DNA from: an uncultured Verrucomicrobiota bacterium
GTDB lineage: Bacteria > Verrucomicrobiota > Verrucomicrobiia > Limisphaerales > UBA1100
Direction of reading: 5' to 3'
Assembly: GCA_902551155.1 (NCBI GenBank)
Contig: CACDBG010000013.1
Location: 1-41,068, forward strand
Length of the DNA stretch: 41,068 bases
Shown: one piece after another, positions 31,398-41,068 of the stretch
Layout of the letters: every line of letters starts with the position of its first letter
How positions within the stretch are numbered: the stretch's first letter is position 1
Made by a program: the position numbers and the translations under genes
The notes under the pieces: generated by a model
Seen by the model: only the letters and a program-made list of their open reading frames with translations
Databases searched by the model: none
What the model was told of the DNA's origin: nothing

Positions 31398-32822
31398 ATG
31401 GCTGATCAGAATTCAGGAATAGTTAGAAAGCAGGTTGGAGCGGAGCCTCTCCAGAATTCTGCCGAAAAAACCATGGATGAAGTGGGGATGGAGGTGCGTC
31501 AGTTATTCGAGAAGGGCTACGGTTTACTAGAGAAGAAGCAATTTGACTATGCAATAGAGATATTCAGTGCCGCCCTCGATAAGGAAGCGTCTTTTTTTGA
31601 ATGTCGAATGTCTTTGCGGGCCGCACAGATCAGAAAAAACGAAAAATTGGGGAGTATTGCCAAAATGGCTGGTGCAGCAGCAAATGCGCACAACATGGCA
31701 CAGGCAAAGGTAGCCATAGCCCGGAAAAATTATTTGGGGGCGATGTCGCATGCGGAAAAAATACTATCTGCTGATCCGGAGAATTCTGTTGGGCACCGCG
31801 TGATCGTGAATGCTTCACAAGCACTTAACTACCCTCAAACGATGATTTCTTCATTGCAAATCCTCAAGAAGGCAAACCCAGGAGATAAGGACTTAACCAA
31901 GGAGCTAGCTGCAGCTTTGGAGATGTTGGGGGATTGGGATCAGGCTGAGGAAATCATGGCTAAGCTCGCCAAAGTTAATCCTGATGATCCTGTTTTGCAG
32001 CAGGCTTATAAGGATACGGCAGCCAAGGCTACAATCTACCGCGGCCGTTACGAGGCTACCTTTAAGAAAGATGAGGAGAAGTCAAAAGGTGATGGTGGTG
32101 CCTCTTTAAGCAAGATTCGCACCGCAGAGGAAGCATTAAATGATAGAATTAATGCAATGGAAGAGCGCCTTCAAAATGAACAGGAAAATTATAAACTAGG
32201 AGTCGATATCGCAAAAGTATATGTAGAATTAAAGGATTTTGATCGTGCCTTTGAATACTACGATTGGGTGCAAAGAGAAAATCAAGTAAGCGACTCGACA
32301 ATTGATAAAGCAATTGCAGACGCACACGAAGCGAAATTCAACCATGATATTGGTCAGTTTCCGGAAGGTTCCCCGGAAAGGGAAGGGCTTGAAGCAGAAA
32401 GAGATGAATTTCTTCTTCGAGACTGTCGAGAACGGGCTGATCGTTATCCGACTATGCCGGAAATCCGTTTTGAATTGGGTGAGCGTTTATTTCGGGTCGG
32501 TGAAGCAAATGAAGCGATTCAGGCTTTTCAGCGCGCTCAAAATAGCCCTAAACATAGGCTAGAATCGCTAAACTACCTAGGTCAGTGCTTTATGCAGCGA
32601 GGCTTGTATGACATGGCTTTGAGTCAATTTGAAAAGGCACTTGAAGAAAAGGGTGTTTTTGATGAACAAAAGAAGGAGCTTGTTTATAACTTAGCTTGTG
32701 TTTACGAGCATCAAGGTCGAACGCAAGAGGCTTTGCATCACTTTAAAAGCATATACGAGGTAGATATTCAGTTCAGGGATGTTGTGCAAAAAGTGGAGGC
32801 TGGATATTCGGATGGAACCTAA
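31398..32822 (+). CDS. Tetratricopeptide-repeat protein
   Basis: A 474-aa, largely helical protein without a signal peptide. TPR-like units are seen at about residues 35-70 (GYGLLEKKQFDYAIEIFSAALDK), 105-140 (ARKNYLGAMSHAEKILSADPEN), 165-205 (LGDWDQAEEIMAKLAKVNPDD), 265-300 (YVELKDFDRAFEYYDWV), 350-385 (GERLFRVGEANEAIQAFQRA) and 390-455 (QCFMQRGLYDMALSQFEKALEEK and LACVYEHQGRTQEALHHF). A charged central stretch (FKKDEEKSKGDGG) links the halves. TPRs scaffold protein complexes; no partner can be named. It precedes the exported proteins on the same strand. Confidence 0.88.
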   Translation: MADQNSGIVRKQVGAEPLQNSAEKTMDEVGMEVRQLFEKGYGLLEKKQFDYAIEIFSAALDKEASFFECRMSLRAAQIRKNEKLGSIAKMAGAAANAHNMAQAKVAIARKNYLGAMSHAEKILSADPENSVGHRVIVNASQALNYPQTMISSLQILKKANPGDKDLTKELAAALEMLGDWDQAEEIMAKLAKVNPDDPVLQQAYKDTAAKATIYRGRYEATFKKDEEKSKGDGGASLSKIRTAEEALNDRINAMEERLQNEQENYKLGVDIAKVYVELKDFDRAFEYYDWVQRENQVSDSTIDKAIADAHEAKFNHDIGQFPEGSPEREGLEAERDEFLLRDCRERADRYPTMPEIRFELGERLFRVGEANEAIQAFQRAQNSPKHRLESLNYLGQCFMQRGLYDMALSQFEKALEEKGVFDEQKKELVYNLACVYEHQGRTQEALHHFKSIYEVDIQFRDVVQKVEAGYSDGT

Positions 32823-32861: not shown

Positions 32862-33392
32862 ATGAGATTTGTGCTCCGTATTATTTTTGTCTTTTTTGTG
32901 GGCTTGATGGCTTCGGTTTCAGCAGAAGATGTCAAGGTGAAGGTCAGTGCTCAGACTTTTGTAATGCCAAATAATTGGAAGGCAGAGAAGACTGAGAGTA
33001 GCATGCGGGCAGCACAGTTTCTGGTGCCGGGGGCTAATGGCAAGGAATCTGCCAGTTGCGTGTTCTTCTACTTTGGGCCGGGAAATGGGGGTGGGGCGAA
33101 GGCCAATCTTGAACGTTGGGCAGGTCAATTCTCCAATGAGCCAAAACCTGAATTAAAAACAGAAGAAAATAAGGTTAACGGGATTCCTGTGGTTTATTTG
33201 TTTGGGACGGGTACATTCATGAGTGGGCCTCCTTTTGGCGGAAAGAAAGTGCCTAAAAAAGATTATGGTATGGCTGCGGCAGTGCTGGGTACAAAGCCCG
33301 GATATATCTTCGTTAAGATGACCGGGCCAAAGGCAGTTGTTGATAATGCGAAGAATGATTTCAAGAAAATGATTGAGAGCGGTTTGAAGTAG
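32862..33392 (+). CDS. Exported protein of unknown function, 176 aa
   Basis: The signal peptide covers about residues 1-21 (LRIIFVFFVGLMASVSA). The mature part has a beta-rich pattern, FVMPNNWKAEK, VFFYFGPGNGGGAKANLERWAGQF, NGIPVVYLFGTGTF and PGYIFVKMTGPKAVVDNAKNDF. The phrase with the glycine run and ERWAGQF looks like a conserved secreted domain of PVC bacteria, but I cannot name it. It has no catalytic motif I can recognise. It is 40 bases downstream of the TPR gene and 20 bases before the PA14 gene, so it may be part of a cell-envelope operon. Confidence 0.7.
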   Translation: MRFVLRIIFVFFVGLMASVSAEDVKVKVSAQTFVMPNNWKAEKTESSMRAAQFLVPGANGKESASCVFFYFGPGNGGGAKANLERWAGQFSNEPKPELKTEENKVNGIPVVYLFGTGTFMSGPPFGGKKVPKKDYGMAAAVLGTKPGYIFVKMTGPKAVVDNAKNDFKKMIESGLK

Positions 33393-33411
33393 TTTGCTTT
33401 CTCATAGCCAT

Positions 33412-35076
33412 ATGAATTTCTATCTAAGGTGGGCTTGCTTGGCCTTGTTTGCCTGTTGTTCCATTTGGTTGCGCTCAGGGACGGTGACGACCAAGGATGG
33501 GCAAGGTTACTCAGGATTGGTGAAGTTTGAGGACTCTGATCATCTAACGGTTGGTCCACCTAAAGGTCCGAGAAAAAAAATTCCGCTTAAAAACGTGGTG
33601 GCCGCCACCTTCGATATTCCTGCTGACCCTGAGATGTTTGAAAGCGGGGCTCCTTCTGCAGGTAAAGGATATGGAATTTTAGCCGCTTATTATGATCGGC
33701 CAAATTTTAAAGGGCGTGTGATATACCGGATTGATCGGACAATAAATCATCAATGGCGATCACGTCAGCCCGTATTTGATTTACCAAGGGATTATTTTTC
33801 AGTTCGTTGGGCTGGTGAACTAGAGCCGCCAGTTACCGGAGAATATACTTTTACCTTGAATGCTAATGATGGAGGGAAGCTCATGGTGGGGGACTTGACC
33901 TTGGGTAAATGGGAGGCACTTTCAGGTTTTCGTGAAGTTGGGAAATTGGCGTTAGAGGCCGGAAAGCGCGTTCGTTTTGAGTTTGATTTTTTCGATAATT
34001 ATGGTGAAGCCAGCGCTAGAGTTTTATGGAAGGGGCCGGGTTTTCAGGAATCACCTATTTCTCCCACACAATTATATCCGGACACGAATAAGGCGCCAAA
34101 AGGGTTCAAATCCCAATCTGGGTTATTGGGCTGTTATTATCAAAACCGGTTTTTTTATGGAGATGGGATATTGTCCATTGACCCTAAGATGGATTTTTCA
34201 CCTGTCACCCCCCCGGAAGAATTCCCGGATAAGAACTACAGCGTCCGGTGGACCGGACAACTGGAAGCGCCATATACCGAGGAATATTCCTTTAAGATTT
34301 CTACGGACGAGGGGGTTCGTTTATGGGTTAATCAGCTCCTCGTTATTAATGAGCTATCTAACCGTGCGCCAAGAGTTTTCACCGGAAAAGTTCCTTTGCA
34401 CCGCGGTGAGCGTATCGGGGTTCGACTTGAATCAGTTCATCGCGCTGGACAAGGTAATCTGAAGGTGGTTTGGTCCAGTAAAAGTAAATCTGAGTCAATC
34501 CTCGGCGGCGAGGGAGTTTATCCATCTTATGAGCCTGCAGAGGTTAAGGATGAGGGTGGAGGTGAGGGCGATGAATCTCAAACTTTGGGCGTTTTTTCAT
34601 GGGCTGGATCCCGTATAGCCTCCAGTCCTGTTTCTGTTGATGATTCATCAGTTAAATTTTCAAAAGGTACTTACCCAGAACGTATTTCGACAATTAATGT
34701 TTCTCGTATGGTTATGCGCCCCGTGCCAGTGAAGTATCGTAATCGGATCACGGATAACCGGACGGGTGTTTTGCTGGCTAACGGAGATTTTGTTGAAGGA
34801 CAAATGCAAAGCCTCGATAATAATACGCTGGTCTTAAACTCAGTGCTTTTTGGGGTGAAGGTTTACGGAATTGATCAGGTAATGGCGATTGTGTTGGCTG
34901 GTATTAAAGCTCCCACGAAGACATCCAAATTTAATTTGCGGCTAGAAAATGGATCACAATTTTACGTTCGAGGATTTAGGGTTGATAAAAAAGATATTAT
35001 TGTGGATGACCCATCGGTGGGGAAAATAAGAATCCCTCTGACCGAATTCAATGAGTTACGGGCTATCGACCGTTAG
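33412..35076 (+). CDS. Exported protein with tandem PA14 domains flanked by SH3-like modules
   Basis: Starting at the ATG at 33412 (the track's TTG adds six residues), the protein is 554 aa with an N-terminal hydrophobic leader (MNFYLRWACLALFACCS). A small SH3-like strand set (GTVTTKDGQGYSGLVKFEDS) precedes PA14 domain 1 (about residues 80-230: LAAYYDRPNFKG, YFSVRWAGEL, VTGEYTFTLNANDGGKL) and PA14 domain 2 (about 235-380: LLGCYYQNRFF, YSVRWTGQL, YSFKISTDEGVRLWVNQ). The C-terminal third has two more SH3-like units (LLANGDFVEGQMQSL and LRLENGSQFYVRGF). PA14 domains bind carbohydrate. It may mediate adhesion or glycan binding. Confidence 0.82.
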   Translation: MNFYLRWACLALFACCSIWLRSGTVTTKDGQGYSGLVKFEDSDHLTVGPPKGPRKKIPLKNVVAATFDIPADPEMFESGAPSAGKGYGILAAYYDRPNFKGRVIYRIDRTINHQWRSRQPVFDLPRDYFSVRWAGELEPPVTGEYTFTLNANDGGKLMVGDLTLGKWEALSGFREVGKLALEAGKRVRFEFDFFDNYGEASARVLWKGPGFQESPISPTQLYPDTNKAPKGFKSQSGLLGCYYQNRFFYGDGILSIDPKMDFSPVTPPEEFPDKNYSVRWTGQLEAPYTEEYSFKISTDEGVRLWVNQLLVINELSNRAPRVFTGKVPLHRGERIGVRLESVHRAGQGNLKVVWSSKSKSESILGGEGVYPSYEPAEVKDEGGGEGDESQTLGVFSWAGSRIASSPVSVDDSSVKFSKGTYPERISTINVSRMVMRPVPVKYRNRITDNRTGVLLANGDFVEGQMQSLDNNTLVLNSVLFGVKVYGIDQVMAIVLAGIKAPTKTSKFNLRLENGSQFYVRGFRVDKKDIIVDDPSVGKIRIPLTEFNELRAIDR

Positions 35077-35150: not shown

Positions 35151-38100
35151 TTAGTTTGCTGATAACTTGTGGCTTTCGGAATGACTGTTGAACTCGGGTG
35201 CGTACATGCACTGAATGTTGGCCATACCGGTTTGGTATTCGCCCTTGTGCTGGACTCTAACATTGTATTCGAACACGTAAACACCTTTGGGCAGGTAGTC
35301 GATATAGAAGTGTGAGGCAGTATCACGGGTCATTTCATAGTATCCGAGGCCATCTTGATATTTGTAACGGCTTAACACGTTAGTTGGCTCGGTTCCGCTA
35401 CCGCGCTGGTCCTTCATGTGTACGTATTCCATGTCGCGATCGGTCTTCAGTACTAGCCGTACCACTAATTCATCACCTGTCTTTACGCCTCCTTGCACCG
35501 GCTTAAGTTGTGGGCCTTGGGCGGTATTTACCTTTGTGTAGAGTTGTTTGGTAAGTTTTAGTGGTGTGTCTTCATGTGGTGTAATCTTGGAAATATCCTC
35601 TAAGTACTGCCAGTGCACACTTCCCCAAGCAACCCCTTCATCATGTTTGGTGACTTTGATGTTGCCGTAGCTTGGTTTTACATCACTACCCAGAAAGCGG
35701 TGCTGGTAGAACCCAGTGCCAGCCTCAATATTCTTAGGCTCGATCTTAGTGTTGCCCACGGTTACCTCCACTAGGGCTTCGCTGGAGAGGGGGTTGGCAC
35801 CTTGAAGGAGCAATGCATAGCATGCATCAGCTGTTGCCTTGGTGGTTTTCCAGTCCTGAGTTTGTTTTTGTTTAATGAGCCAGACTTTGGCATCTTCTAA
35901 TGCGTCGAAGTCTTGGGTAACTTCATGGAAGGCTTCGATCATCATTGCCTGAGTTTCAATTGGGGCCCGGTACCACCAATGGCTTAGTTCCTGATCACGC
36001 CAGAAGAGGCCCATTTCCTCGTTGCTAACGGATCGTTCCTTAACGGACTTAATGATCAACTTGGCCAAGTCATTGTACTGGGCTTTACGTTCAGATCGGC
36101 CGAAACGATTCATGGCAATGGCTACTTGAGCCTGGTTCATTCTTGAGAGGCTCAGGAAGTACTTAGTGCCATCTTTCTCCTCTTTAATTGCTTGCCCGAG
36201 GAAGTAGTTTATTGCTTCCTGATTTTGTTTGGCGATCGGGCGATCTTTCAGGAAGAAAGAGCGACAGTAGAGGTACTGTGCAATTAGCGAGGTAAGGTTA
36301 TTGTTGTCCAGGTTTCCGTGTTGTTGGATAAGGCGATATTTTTTATCAATCCAGCCGTCCAGTCTGTTAACAGCCTTTATTGCCATGGTCTGATCGATCT
36401 CCACATTCATTGCGCGCATGCGGCCGAAACCTGTGGTGATATATAGGGTGATATAATCACTGGCACGCCCCCCCGGCATCCAAGGCCAAGCTCCGTCGGC
36501 AAATTGAGTTTCGCGTAGGCGACGCATGGCGGCTAGGGTTTCATTGGCTAAGCGTTGATCTTCAAAAAGGATACCCACATTACGGCGGGCCTTACTTTCG
36601 CTCTTGGCCTGACGGAGCCAAGGGGTTTCCTCCAGCATCACCCCTTTTAAGTCCTGATTCTTCTCCAGTGGGCTATCAAGGGCAGGAGTGTTGCGCCATT
36701 TTTCAAACACCTGCTCGATCCGGGGGTCGCTCTTGGCTATGTGGTGAGCGAGTCCATTTGCATACAAGCGGGTAAAGGTGCTCATTGTGCTTGGGTGTGG
36801 GCTTTCCATTAGGTAAGGAAGGGCCATTACCGCGTACCAATTCGGATTGGATACCATTTGCACAGTGAAACGCTCATGTTTGAGGGTGTCGCTCTGGTCA
36901 GATGCGACGAGTTTATCAAACTTAAAGTTTTTACTCTTTGCCCCACGGATTGGTAGGGGGAGGCTTTCAGTGACAAAGATATGGCGACTCAAAACAGGCA
37001 ACATAGCTTGTTCGCCATCAGTCACCTTATCGGTGCCGCCTACAGCTTTGTAGGTGAGGAATCCAAGGTTATCGGGTACGGTCAAACGCCATGAGTAGGT
37101 CTTACTCTGGTTGGCTGGAACGACGAATCCTTTATCCAGTTGAGTATTACCTAGCAGATCATCCACATTATCTTCTGTGAGGGCGTCAGAGAATGTAAGG
37201 CGAACCTTTCCGGTTTGCTCCTTTTCGGTGCGGTTGGTGACCTTTACGGTGAATTCCAATTGATCGCCTTCACGCAGGAAGCGTGGTGGATTAGGTTGCA
37301 CCATGATATCTTTTGAGGTGACAGTGCTGCCAGAAAGGAATCCGCTTCGTAGCTCGTTGTCATGGGTGAAGCCCATGAATTTCCACTTAGTGAGGGCCTC
37401 TGGTATATTGAATTCCAATCGAACTTTACCGTCTTCATTGGAAACCAGATGCGGCATGAAGAAGGCTGTCTCCTGAAGATTCTTGCGGGCGGCAACTTGT
37501 GAAAGGTCAGGCCCAGTCTGAGTGCCTCCACCTTGTCCGGATCCCTCACGTTTGAGTGCACTGTTCAGCTGTTCTTCAGGAGCACTTGCAGCATCATCCA
37601 TGGCCATGGCTGCTCCACCCATTGTAGCGGCAGGGGCACCTTTTCTCATGGCCATCATAGGTGCGGGTGCGCCTTCTTTTTCAGCCATTTCCATTCTGGG
37701 GCCTCCCCGGCTCGAGAAGGCCATAGTACGTTGTTTTCGGGCGCCGTAGTAACTGTAACCTGAAAGGTTGGCAGCGATTTCACGCGGGAAGGAGCGGTAG
37801 CTCATGGAAGTGTTTTGATAATCCTGACGCATCCATGAACCCTGCAGGTGTTGCATACCTTTATTGAGGTTTACAAACTGTTGGTTTAGGCGTGCGTAAT
37901 CCTGACGGAAGACGTTCATCGCTGTCTGCCACTCATGTGGTTTGTACTGGTCAAGGCTCTCGTCATAGAGAACGGCAGCCATTTCGGCTACGGCCTTATC
38001 GGCATCTTTGCCGCTAATAACTGCAGTCCATTTTTCTTTTTGTCCGGGCTGCAGTTTGTCCGTGAAGTGCTCCCACTTGACGGTGAGGTTTTTATTGTTC

Positions 38101-41068
38101 CAGGGAACGCTCACCTTATGGCTTGAAAGGTATGCGCGGTTTTCTCTAACCATGGTGACATGCAGGGTGAATCCGCCACGCATAGCTTCATCAACGGCTT
38201 GATGAATAGCCAACTGAGTCAGGCCGCGTTTGGTCCAGAAGCTTTGGAGGACTTTGCGGCGATGCTCGATTTCTATGAAGGCACGAGCTTCATCGTAGCC
38301 GCTTCCCCAGAGCGCCATAAATTCTTCGCCCGGCTCGACGGTCCAAGTTTTTGATTTGATCATATGAGGTATGCGGATACCCAGCTTGGCTGCTCTTGGG
38401 TTCAATACCTGGATTGGCGCTTCGGCAGTAACTTTTTTGCCAAAACGATCCTCTGTCTCGAGGACTGCCCGGTAGGCACCTTCCTTTAGCTTAAAATTGA
38501 AATTTGCTTGTCCACTGTTGTCAGTGGTGAATCCTTTTTGTTCGACAACTTTGCCCAATTCCCAGGAATTGATATTTGAGGCGTCTGGCATAGGTATGAA
38601 TTCTGGGGCGAAACGTCCGTTACGCATGGGCATCACATTAAACCGGTTGTTATTGAGTTTTGCTCGTTCCACACTCTTTGGTTGGTTCAATGCGTAAACC
38701 TTTAGTGTGCCTTCAACTTGCTGGCCGATGCCATCGAGCGATGTAGTGATGAGGTTAATGGCAACCGCTTCATTTTGGGTTTGCCAATCAGCAGCAGAAA
38801 CACTGGCTTTGAGGGCTGTGTATCCAAGATTGATGGAATGACTGTCACTGCGGGTTTCGCCGGTTGTGTCAGTCACATCAGCGTGGATGGTATAGCGGAA
38901 GGTAGGTTCGTCCTTCGGAGACACGCTGTTGTCGGGCTTCGCATTGAACTTCACATCAAAGGAGCCATCGGCTTTGGTAGATGTGGTGCCGTGGGCGATT
39001 TCCTGGTTTTGGCCGCGAGGCATAGGGCGCCACCAATAACGATAACCATACCAGTCGGGGTAGCGAACTTCTCGAACTACACGCCATTTAACCTTGGCTT
39101 CATTAATGGCTGCACCAGTATAAGCAGTGGCTTTACCTGTGAGGTTAATTTCAGCATTGAGTTTCCCAGCTGTTTCCGGGGCTTTTACATCCACTTCAAA
39201 CTTCGGGCGCTTGTATTCCTCGACGTTAATACTCGCGGAGCCGCGAGGTCCGGTGGTGACCTGTAGGGTCATGCGGCCTAAAACTCGGTCTCGTGGAGCG
39301 GTAAATTTTCCGCTAAAGGAGCCGTAATCATTGGCACGATGTTGTTGCCGTGTGATTTCTTTGCCATTGCGATCTCGAAAAGCAACTGTAACCACCGAAT
39401 TGGGGATGGTGCGGTAGTTGTCATTGTGTTGGTCCACGTGAATAGCAAGACCCTTGTATTCTATTGTTTGACCCGGCCGGTAGAGCGAGCGGTCGGTGAA
39501 GAAGATTGTGCGGTCGTAGGGACGTGGATTGTTGATGCGGCCGTGGTTGTAGGCATCATTATAGGTGCTAAGTTGCTGATTGCCTTTACTAGCGAGAATT
39601 AAATAGCCACGGTTGTTTACTGGGAATATGAACTGTCCGTTTTCATTAGATGTCGTGGGGGCAACCTCCTGGCGCGTGTTGCCGTTACGAGTCCAGGCGC
39701 GAACTTTGGCGTTGGCGACTGGCTCGCCACTTTGTGCATCAAGAACAAATCCTTCGATTTTTCCATTGCCACTACGTTGGCGCATCACGATGGCTAAATC
39801 GCTGGCCCAGAAGCTGGTGTAATAGCAAACGTTGTTGGCTTCATTGAAATTTTTGTTATGACTGCTAATGAGGTAATAGAATCCTGACGGCAAGTCTTTG
39901 GGTGCCTTAAAGGTCTTCATTGCCTCATGATAATCGGTTGTGGGAGCAAGTTTAATGCTCCATTCCTTGATGACTTCAGCGCGTAGAAGGGCGCGACGTT
40001 CGTTGTTGTCCAACCATTGAGGGTTACCACGTTTACGCTTCATGGCCGCTTCCCAGTTTTCGCCGACCACACGGAAGTGAATTTGATCTACGTTGCGGTA
40101 TTTGATTGTGATATCAGGTTGTGGATCATTCCAGACGCGCTCAATTGTGACATTTGAGGTTTTGGCTTCGATTTGGTTGATGAGGTTGTTGCACATTGCT
40201 CCACCAGGCGTTTTCGGGAACGCATTCTGGCCTTGAGTGGCAATTTTATGGGCGGCGACTTTATCTCCATCCTGGTCCAATGACTGAGCCATATGATAGC
40301 GAGCTCGGGCGCTTATGCGGTGGTCGGCCCAATTGTTTATAAATCTTTTTAAAGCGGCACGGTAGCGGTCATTTTTGTTTTCTCCAAAAGCCTTGTTCTT
40401 GCCAAAGTTAATCCGGCCAAGGTCGGCGTCGATGTAGGCACTTTTATCCGTATCATTTTTATGAAAGCGGAGTAGGTCCTGATAAAGCTCTAAGGCTTTA
40501 ACCATGCGTGAATCCTTATCAGTGGTTTTTATGTCCCACGCCATAAATTTCTCGGCGCTGTCAAATATTGGATCATTGCTGTTGAGTTCAAATGCATCTT
40601 GAGCTTTTGCTCCGGCTTGTTCGCCGCTACTGTAAAATTGCAGGGCATTGAAGACTAAAAAGTCATACATTGTTGGGCGGAAGGAATCTGGTTGGCTGCC
40701 TTTTTGAAGAAGGTCGTCATAGTCAGCCACCCGCGTTTTCTTTAGGATTGCTTGATGTGATAGGGCGGCATTGAATTGTTTATCGATTTCAGTGTAGATG
40801 CGCGGCAGGTCCCAGGTTTCAAAATCTTCATTGGGGGCAGCGGCGGTGCGGCTTCTTTGAATGAAACGCCAGCGGTTTTGTTGGAAGTAATGCCAATACC
40901 AGTTGGCAAGAACTGCGGTCATCATTGGCTTCATTTGAGCGGGAGCTTTTTCGATCTCCTCCTCCATACGCCTAATTTTTTCCTGTGCTTTGTTGCCTCG
41001 AATGTTCCCTTCCAGAGAAATTTTCCTGCCGACGGCTTTGATGGCTTCAGCATAGTCCTTCTTAGAGA
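35151..41068 (-). CDS. Alpha-2-macroglobulin-like protein, thioester site lost, 5'-truncated
   Basis: The frame is open beyond the track's ATG at 40967 to the window edge (KKDYAEAIKAVGRKIS precedes it), so the N-terminus is missing. At least 1971 residues are visible. Numbering from the Met at 40967, the N-terminal part is helical (TPR-like, to about 260), then beta-rich with a carboxypeptidase-regulatory-like unit (about 400-450, GFVLDAQSGEPVANAKV), an MG2 domain (about 485-590, TDRSLYRPGQTIEYKG), further MG domains, a Met/Ala/Gly-rich linker at about 1085-1135 and the A2M domain (about 1165-1260, ETAFFMPHL and EALTKWKFMG). The expected thioester Cys-x-x-Gln reads STMS (Ser1393-Ser1396), so it should not form a covalent bond. 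The C-terminal half is helical then beta. It is probably periplasmic or surface protein. Confidence 0.88.
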   Translation of the reverse strand, partial: SKKDYAEAIKAVGRKISLEGNIRGNKAQEKIRRMEEEIEKAPAQMKPMMTAVLANWYWHYFQQNRWRFIQRSRTAAAPNEDFETWDLPRIYTEIDKQFNAALSHQAILKKTRVADYDDLLQKGSQPDSFRPTMYDFLVFNALQFYSSGEQAGAKAQDAFELNSNDPIFDSAEKFMAWDIKTTDKDSRMVKALELYQDLLRFHKNDTDKSAYIDADLGRINFGKNKAFGENKNDRYRAALKRFINNWADHRISARARYHMAQSLDQDGDKVAAHKIATQGQNAFPKTPGGAMCNNLINQIEAKTSNVTIERVWNDPQPDITIKYRNVDQIHFRVVGENWEAAMKRKRGNPQWLDNNERRALLRAEVIKEWSIKLAPTTDYHEAMKTFKAPKDLPSGFYYLISSHNKNFNEANNVCYYTSFWASDLAIVMRQRSGNGKIEGFVLDAQSGEPVANAKVRAWTRNGNTRQEVAPTTSNENGQFIFPVNNRGYLILASKGNQQLSTYNDAYNHGRINNPRPYDRTIFFTDRSLYRPGQTIEYKGLAIHVDQHNDNYRTIPNSVVTVAFRDRNGKEITRQQHRANDYGSFSGKFTAPRDRVLGRMTLQVTTGPRGSASINVEEYKRPKFEVDVKAPETAGKLNAEINLTGKATAYTGAAINEAKVKWRVVREVRYPDWYGYRYWWRPMPRGQNQEIAHGTTSTKADGSFDVKFNAKPDNSVSPKDEPTFRYTIHADVTDTTGETRSDSHSINLGYTALKASVSAADWQTQNEAVAINLITTSLDGIGQQVEGTLKVYALNQPKSVERAKLNNNRFNVMPMRNGRFAPEFIPMPDASNINSWELGKVVEQKGFTTDNSGQANFNFKLKEGAYRAVLETEDRFGKKVTAEAPIQVLNPRAAKLGIRIPHMIKSKTWTVEPGEEFMALWGSGYDEARAFIEIEHRRKVLQSFWTKRGLTQLAIHQAVDEAMRGGFTLHVTMVRENRAYLSSHKVSVPWNNKNLTVKWEHFTDKLQPGQKEKWTAVISGKDADKAVAEMAAVLYDESLDQYKPHEWQTAMNVFRQDYARLNQQFVNLNKGMQHLQGSWMRQDYQNTSMSYRSFPREIAANLSGYSYYGARKQRTMAFSSRGGPRMEMAEKEGAPAPMMAMRKGAPAATMGGAAMAMDDAASAPEEQLNSALKREGSGQGGGTQTGPDLSQVAARKNLQETAFFMPHLVSNEDGKVRLEFNIPEALTKWKFMGFTHDNELRSGFLSGSTVTSKDIMVQPNPPRFLREGDQLEFTVKVTNRTEKEQTGKVRLTFSDALTEDNVDDLLGNTQLDKGFVVPANQSKTYSWRLTVPDNLGFLTYKAVGGTDKVTDGEQAMLPVLSRHIFVTESLPLPIRGAKSKNFKFDKLVASDQSDTLKHERFTVQMVSNPNWYAVMALPYLMESPHPSTMSTFTRLYANGLAHHIAKSDPRIEQVFEKWRNTPALDSPLEKNQDLKGVMLEETPWLRQAKSESKARRNVGILFEDQRLANETLAAMRRLRETQFADGAWPWMPGGRASDYITLYITTGFGRMRAMNVEIDQTMAIKAVNRLDGWIDKKYRLIQQHGNLDNNNLTSLIAQYLYCRSFFLKDRPIAKQNQEAINYFLGQAIKEEKDGTKYFLSLSRMNQAQVAIAMNRFGRSERKAQYNDLAKLIIKSVKERSVSNEEMGLFWRDQELSHWWYRAPIETQAMMIEAFHEVTQDFDALEDAKVWLIKQKQTQDWKTTKATADACYALLLQGANPLSSEALVEVTVGNTKIEPKNIEAGTGFYQHRFLGSDVKPSYGNIKVTKHDEGVAWGSVHWQYLEDISKITPHEDTPLKLTKQLYTKVNTAQGPQLKPVQGGVKTGDELVVRLVLKTDRDMEYVHMKDQRGSGTEPTNVLSRYKYQDGLGYYEMTRDTASHFYIDYLPKGVYVFEYNVRVQHKGEYQTGMANIQCMYAPEFNSHSESHKLSAN

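Follow-up and report, generated by a model that had tools for sequence, protein, structure and literature searches.

Alpha-2-macroglobulins (A2Ms) normally bind attacking proteases covalently. How bacterial A2Ms work without a thioester is a question sharpened by the 2025 finding that MagD of Pseudomonas aeruginosa protects against peptidoglycan-targeting T6SS effectors (PMC12663445). Such thioester-less proteins are already known as type II A2Ms (PMC5764988). The window analyzed here, 41,068 nucleotides from an uncultured marine Verrucomicrobiota bacterium, ends inside an A2M gene for which the original prediction, made from the sequence alone, was that the thioester Cys and Gln are gone. The locus raises the question of whether this A2M has decayed or is kept for something other than covalent trapping. 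The new finding is that a separate, thioester-bearing branch lost the motif independently and by degrees, that strong selection followed, and that the gene is linked to a MoxR operon; no prior report of the graded loss or of this link was found in the open-access literature.

Gene and Former Thioester Motif

The features of the A2M gene were as follows:

35151..41066, minus strand: alpha-2-macroglobulin (A2M) gene, recognized by its ORF and Pfam matches, with the 5' end beyond the contig end
37473..37850, minus strand: presumed bait region, approximately residues 1040-1165, G/A/M-rich and hypervariable, with its length kept
35628..36947, minus strand: thioester (TED) domain region, approximately residues 1341-1780, predicted to be mostly helical
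36801..36803, minus strand: residue 1389, Ser, where 63 of 65 intact rows have Y or F as the shielding aromatic
36780..36791, minus strand: residues 1393-1396, S-T-M-S in place of the thioester motif CxEQ, codons AGC ACA ATG AGC
35154..35627, minus strand: C-terminal macroglobulin region, residues 1781-1938, with a bMG10 match at 1803-1925

The ORF comprised 1971 open codons in the window and was truncated by the contig end, with about 2034 aa expected at full length. Pfam matches to bMG10 (2.7e-31, 108.9 bits), A2M (1.8e-21, 76.2 bits) and MG2 (1.5e-17, 64.2 bits) all scored above the curated cut-offs, placing the protein in the bacterial alpha-2-macroglobulin family; a search of NCBIfam assigned no family. 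In the nearest relative, a full-length orthologue 96% identical to the window protein, 96 residues and a signal peptide precede the position of the Met at 40967. Because the ORF leaves the contig and this orthologue is longer N-terminally, that Met is evidently not the true start, and residues are counted from it here. The N-termini of relatives, read by eye, were signal peptides of the MKKL type with no evident lipobox, so the A2M should be periplasmic or secreted.

When 60 homologues of at least 1300 aa, all carrying C and Q at the motif, were aligned with the protein, residues 1393-1396 fell on the thioester motif without gaps, giving the substitutions C1393S, E1395M and Q1396S. Cys and Gln were invariant among the 60 and Ser stood at both columns in the window protein, confirming the predicted loss of these two residues as well as the predicted change of Glu to Met. 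The minus-strand DNA around 36820-36740 reads MALPYLMESPHPSTMSTFTRLYANGLA, with S-T-M-S inside it at window positions 36791-36780. A CxEQ at another position would have undone the prediction, and none was present throughout the rest of the protein.

Further changes beside the motif had been missed by the first reading: Ser at Cys-4, E1392 to Pro, and N1399 to Thr. The Cys-4 residue, Tyr or Phe in nearly all intact sequences, was Ser or Asn across the clade that lost the motif. H1519 was considered as a catalytic His and dropped, its position not matching that of the catalytic His of complement C3. In E. coli ECAM, Tyr1183 is among the residues that shield the thioester (Cys1187), and the pocket has been described (PMC4498604); the Cys-4 spacing is the same as that from Tyr1183 to Cys1187. 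Met/Leu1921-Tyr1922 of MG10 was conserved in the C-terminal macroglobulin region. Of the aromatic shield known from type I A2Ms, the protein has kept the MG10 Tyr and lost the Cys-4 aromatic.

The original prediction also held that the fold is retained. An AlphaFold model of 782 residues (pLDDT 84.9, pTM 0.77) showed a helical TED between beta domains, flanked by the A2M and MG10 domains. A Foldseek search of the PDB gave Salmonella A2M (4u48, E 4.5e-29) as the best match and complement C5 as the next, with a whole-chain TM of about 0.3 (0.30 for 4u48), long multidomain chains being compared. A profile search of the PDB with the A2M alignment A1 returned no match at 0.001. The TED fold is thus predicted to be retained, in agreement with the original prediction. 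The protein shares with type I A2Ms (E. coli YfhM/ECAM, Salmonella Sa-A2M) the MG2, A2M, bMG10 and TED domains, the MG10 Met/Leu-Tyr and the fold match to 4u48, and differs from them in having STMS instead of CxEQ, in lacking the thioester Cys/Gln, the TED aromatic shield and an evident lipobox, and in its long N-terminal stretch without a Pfam match.

Distribution and Order of the Loss

Close relatives were found to share the loss. STMS occurred in 12 species and TSMS in one, all in two genera (g1 and g5) of a single family (f1). Sister lineages within this family carried STEA (two species of genus g2) and GAEQ (one species of g4), and one genome of g3, G010, had an intact CSEQ. Across the order, CxEQ was kept in 75 of the 92 orthologues sampled, and the 17 without it all belonged to f1 except for a single GSEQ in genome G026. 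A tree of 86 homologues united all 15 of its f1 sequences that had lost the motif in one clade (SH-aLRT 100). The label "lost" required nine changes on this tree, which implies scattered independent losses in other lineages and phyla too. Seven single orthologues elsewhere had GSEQ, CSEV, SSDQ, SAEH or SADD, mostly lacking the further TED changes of the STMS clade, which suggests separate, perhaps recent, losses. One STMS orthologue (L077:9692-15828, genome G017) was divided between two overlapping ORFs (1130 + 965 aa), reflecting either an assembly error or a frameshift that lies upstream of the A2M domain.

Replacements in the TED were graded among the f1 lineages. The GAEQ and STEA lineages had lost the Cys and the aromatic and retained E1395, F1497, L1520, W1604 and V1690 (the last unreadable in the GAEQ fragment); these positions were altered only in the STMS clade. 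Conservation among intact homologues reached 90% or more at 547 columns. The STMS clade as a whole had replacements at 18 of these, and the TED accounted for 13 of the 18 (odds ratio 6, Fisher p 0.0004); conserved columns of the domains outside the TED were almost untouched in the loss clade. These states, read from living lineages and not from reconstructed ancestors, fit a sequence in which the Cys and the shielding aromatic would have gone first, then the Gln, then the Glu, with conserved TED positions following. Our guess is that the positions changed later lined the former thioester pocket.

On its sequence, the protein is a descendant of CxEQ-bearing ancestors in which the thioester has been lost for good. 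With CxEQ lost, the protein cannot trap covalently by an internal thioester, and the claim that such trapping should be impossible stands; the thioester Cys, Glu and Gln and the aromatic shield are gone from a whole clade. Close orthologues here span CxEQ, GAEQ, STEA and STMS as a natural series and, together with CxEQ paralogues in the same genomes, make the effect of losing the covalent step testable in matched proteins.

Selection after the Loss

Between close STMS species, dN/dS was 0.04-0.15 for the whole gene and 0.02-0.06 for the TED (Nei-Gojobori counts, dS being saturated in the pair with L040); the TED value for the STEA pair was 0.10. Across the clade, invariant positions made up 80% of residues 1381-1420, 64% of the whole protein and 26% of the presumed bait region. 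Motif codons differed synonymously among species of the loss clade. Together, these comparisons of coding sequences show strong purifying selection on the TED since the thioester was lost, at the site where the original prediction had proposed to look for it.

Sequencing error, a chimera or a pseudogene might be suspected in a fragmented assembly that is 50% complete. Such an origin is hardly credible, since 13 species whose genomes were assembled separately have STMS or TSMS and differ synonymously at the motif codons, all 1971 codons are open, and dN/dS was 0.05-0.09 for the window gene against its nearest two species; the relatives and the dN/dS values led us to reject error and pseudogene. 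The outcome that would have spoken against the original prediction, close homologues with CxEQ and degeneration elsewhere in this copy, was the reverse of what was found: close homologues lack CxEQ and the remaining protein is not degenerate.

The genome of the window encodes a second A2M with an intact CFEQ (FQMPYGCFEQTSS, contig C63), and relatives have one or more CxEQ A2M paralogues each, G010 included. Under relaxed selection, such a paralogue would have made the thioester dispensable and drift would have done the rest, leaving an ancestral structural role and nothing new. The presence of these paralogues and the scattered independent losses elsewhere (SAEH, SSDQ, SADD, CSEV, GSEQ) favor this account, but we regard it as quite unlikely: few parts of the protein are as constrained as the TED and the new motif, where dN/dS is well below 1, conserved positions were replaced in a fixed, clade-wide fashion, and G010 has a CxEQ paralogue and yet an intact orthologue, so that a paralogue alone is insufficient to explain the loss. 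Genomes of the family also encode four A2M-like proteins of about 2200-2800 aa with no CxEQ, which may be a further thioester-less type.

Bait Region and Comparison with Known Thioester-Less Proteins

In the loss clade the presumed bait region was about 136-149 residues long, a length similar to that in intact relatives, and strongly variable in sequence. Its probable identity follows from this variability and from the position of the G/A/M-rich stretch, after the bait-region domain and before the A2M domain.

MagD of P. aeruginosa has no thioester and traps TEV protease non-covalently, and a thioester mutant of Sa-A2M was unable to trap (PMC5764988). Inhibition by monomeric A2Ms (A2ML1, rat A1I3) depends on the thioester (PMC9156758), and chicken ovostatin and C5, which are without a thiol ester, still change shape when cut (PMC8267569). 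The window protein resembles type II A2Ms (MagD; YfaS-like) in that CxEQ is absent, a bait region, as placed by position and variability, and the TED are kept, and the protein appears to be exported. It differs in that the nearest homologues found all fall in a CxEQ-bearing branch, within which the loss is derived. With ovostatin and C5 it has in common membership of the superfamily without a thiol ester, although these are animal proteins, ovostatin is a tetramer, and the losses are independent.

We see about an even chance that this is a derived thioester-less A2M, convergent with type II, whose action is non-covalent and set off by bait cleavage, perhaps in concert with the MoxR/Bat complex described below. 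Beyond the loss and the selection shown above, the mechanism and the partnership that we infer would run as follows. The A2M would lie in the periplasm, where its exposed, hypervariable bait region would be cut by a protease, and cleavage would bring about the usual conformational change of A2Ms. The protein would then hold the protease non-covalently or signal damage, as reported for MagD. More tentatively, it might act with the membrane system encoded head-to-head (MoxR-DUF58-BatA-VWA), and the thioester-bearing paralogue of the same genome might handle covalent trapping. A role as a non-covalent trap, one of those originally proposed, is suggested by analogy with MagD; since monomeric A2Ms need the thioester and the Sa-A2M mutant could not trap, such a trap would need oligomers or partners. 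Adhesion, also proposed, found no support.

Linkage to a MoxR Operon

The genes on the far side of the A2M gene in the window were the following:

33394..35076, plus strand: convergent neighbor, 560 aa, with a PA14 domain, conserved beside A2M in the same family
32862..33392, plus strand: neighbor of 176 aa, no Pfam match, conserved
31398..32822, plus strand: neighbor, TPR protein of 474 aa, conserved

The same convergent PA14, 176-aa and TPR genes lie on the far side of A2M in relatives. The PA14 protein had a weak GLEYA match and, in most of the family, was conserved and convergent with A2M. Where the upstream sequence of a relative was long enough, A2M was divergent from an operon of MoxR, DUF58, BatA, VWA and a gene of 1017 aa, and this head-to-head linkage was seen at every f1 locus that had lost the motif and had enough upstream sequence. 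As in known MoxR/Bat (aerotolerance) operons, the MoxR AAA+ ATPase, DUF58, BatA and VWA are in one operon, which here is divergent from the A2M gene; a point of difference is the 1017-aa fifth gene without a Pfam match. Among the Pfam-typed neighbors there was no sign of the six-gene mag operon, with MoxR, DUF58, BatA, VWA, PA14 and TPR instead, and no pbpC. No report on MoxR together with alpha-2-macroglobulin was found in the open-access literature.

Upstream sequence of 2.5 kb or more was available at 64 loci. Among these, MoxR/DUF58 lay within 3 kb upstream at 14 lost loci (G011 entering twice, as L047 and L144) and one intact locus (G083) and was absent at at least 42 intact loci; these counts share ancestry and are not independent. 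It was also absent at a few lost loci of other lineages, and three of the seven rows so classed (L051, L141, L143) were misread or motif-less. The operon was widespread in the order, and outside the linked lineages it was on other contigs or far away; in G010 it was on a different contig from A2M.

A second linked lineage comprised G026 and G083 (genus g12, family f8) and was not sister to the loss clade. In G026 the Cys was changed to Gly, and in G083 it was kept (CSEQ), the preceding Tyr-Pro being Ser-Thr. Placing the two linked lineages in one clade was rejected (AU test p 0.0004), so the linkage either has two origins or is old and has disappeared from other lineages. A strict tie between MoxR adjacency and motif loss was likewise rejected, G083 being adjacent yet CSEQ. 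The link rests on one main lineage and g12, where one of two species keeps CSEQ.

In the assembly of the window itself the link is invisible because the contig ends inside the A2M gene. A VWA gene begins at base 2 of contig C33 of the same genome, and a search of this genome for the DUF58 of the operon gave only distant copies (36%), as expected if the operon lies between contigs. This is consistent with the operon being in the assembly gap upstream of the window gene, where it would be linked to A2M as in relatives.

The linkage points to an envelope partnership, unforeseen by the original prediction, and is the basis of the main rival to the non-covalent, bait-triggered model. The A2M scaffold could have been co-opted into the MoxR-DUF58-BatA-VWA complex as a periplasmic subunit with a structural or sensory role, with proteases no longer handled and the bait region only a disordered linker. 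The contrast between lost f1 loci and intact loci agrees with this, as do G010, of the same family, with CSEQ kept and its operon on another contig, the independent change of Cys to Gly in G026, and the view that MoxR proteins act as chaperones with VWA proteins (PMC11834572). Nevertheless, the length and variability of the bait region are kept as in intact relatives, G083, from the f8 genus of G026, keeps CSEQ despite its MoxR linkage, and adjacency, in counts that are not independent, does not equal interaction. We therefore consider recruitment possible but doubtful. A further, unlikely reading is that a thioester-bearing A2M, passing through states that living relatives still show (GAEQ-like, STEA-like, then STMS), became a periplasmic component dedicated to a MoxR-BatA-VWA envelope complex, as its sensor or as a subunit; were this reading true, the MoxR system would read protease damage to the bait region. 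The MoxR/Bat linkage offers a specific, testable partner for a thioester-less A2M. The fifth gene of the operon (L043:96-3146 in the nearest relative) gave no match in Pfam or NCBIfam, and its product has a hydrophobic N-terminal segment and is conserved with the operon.
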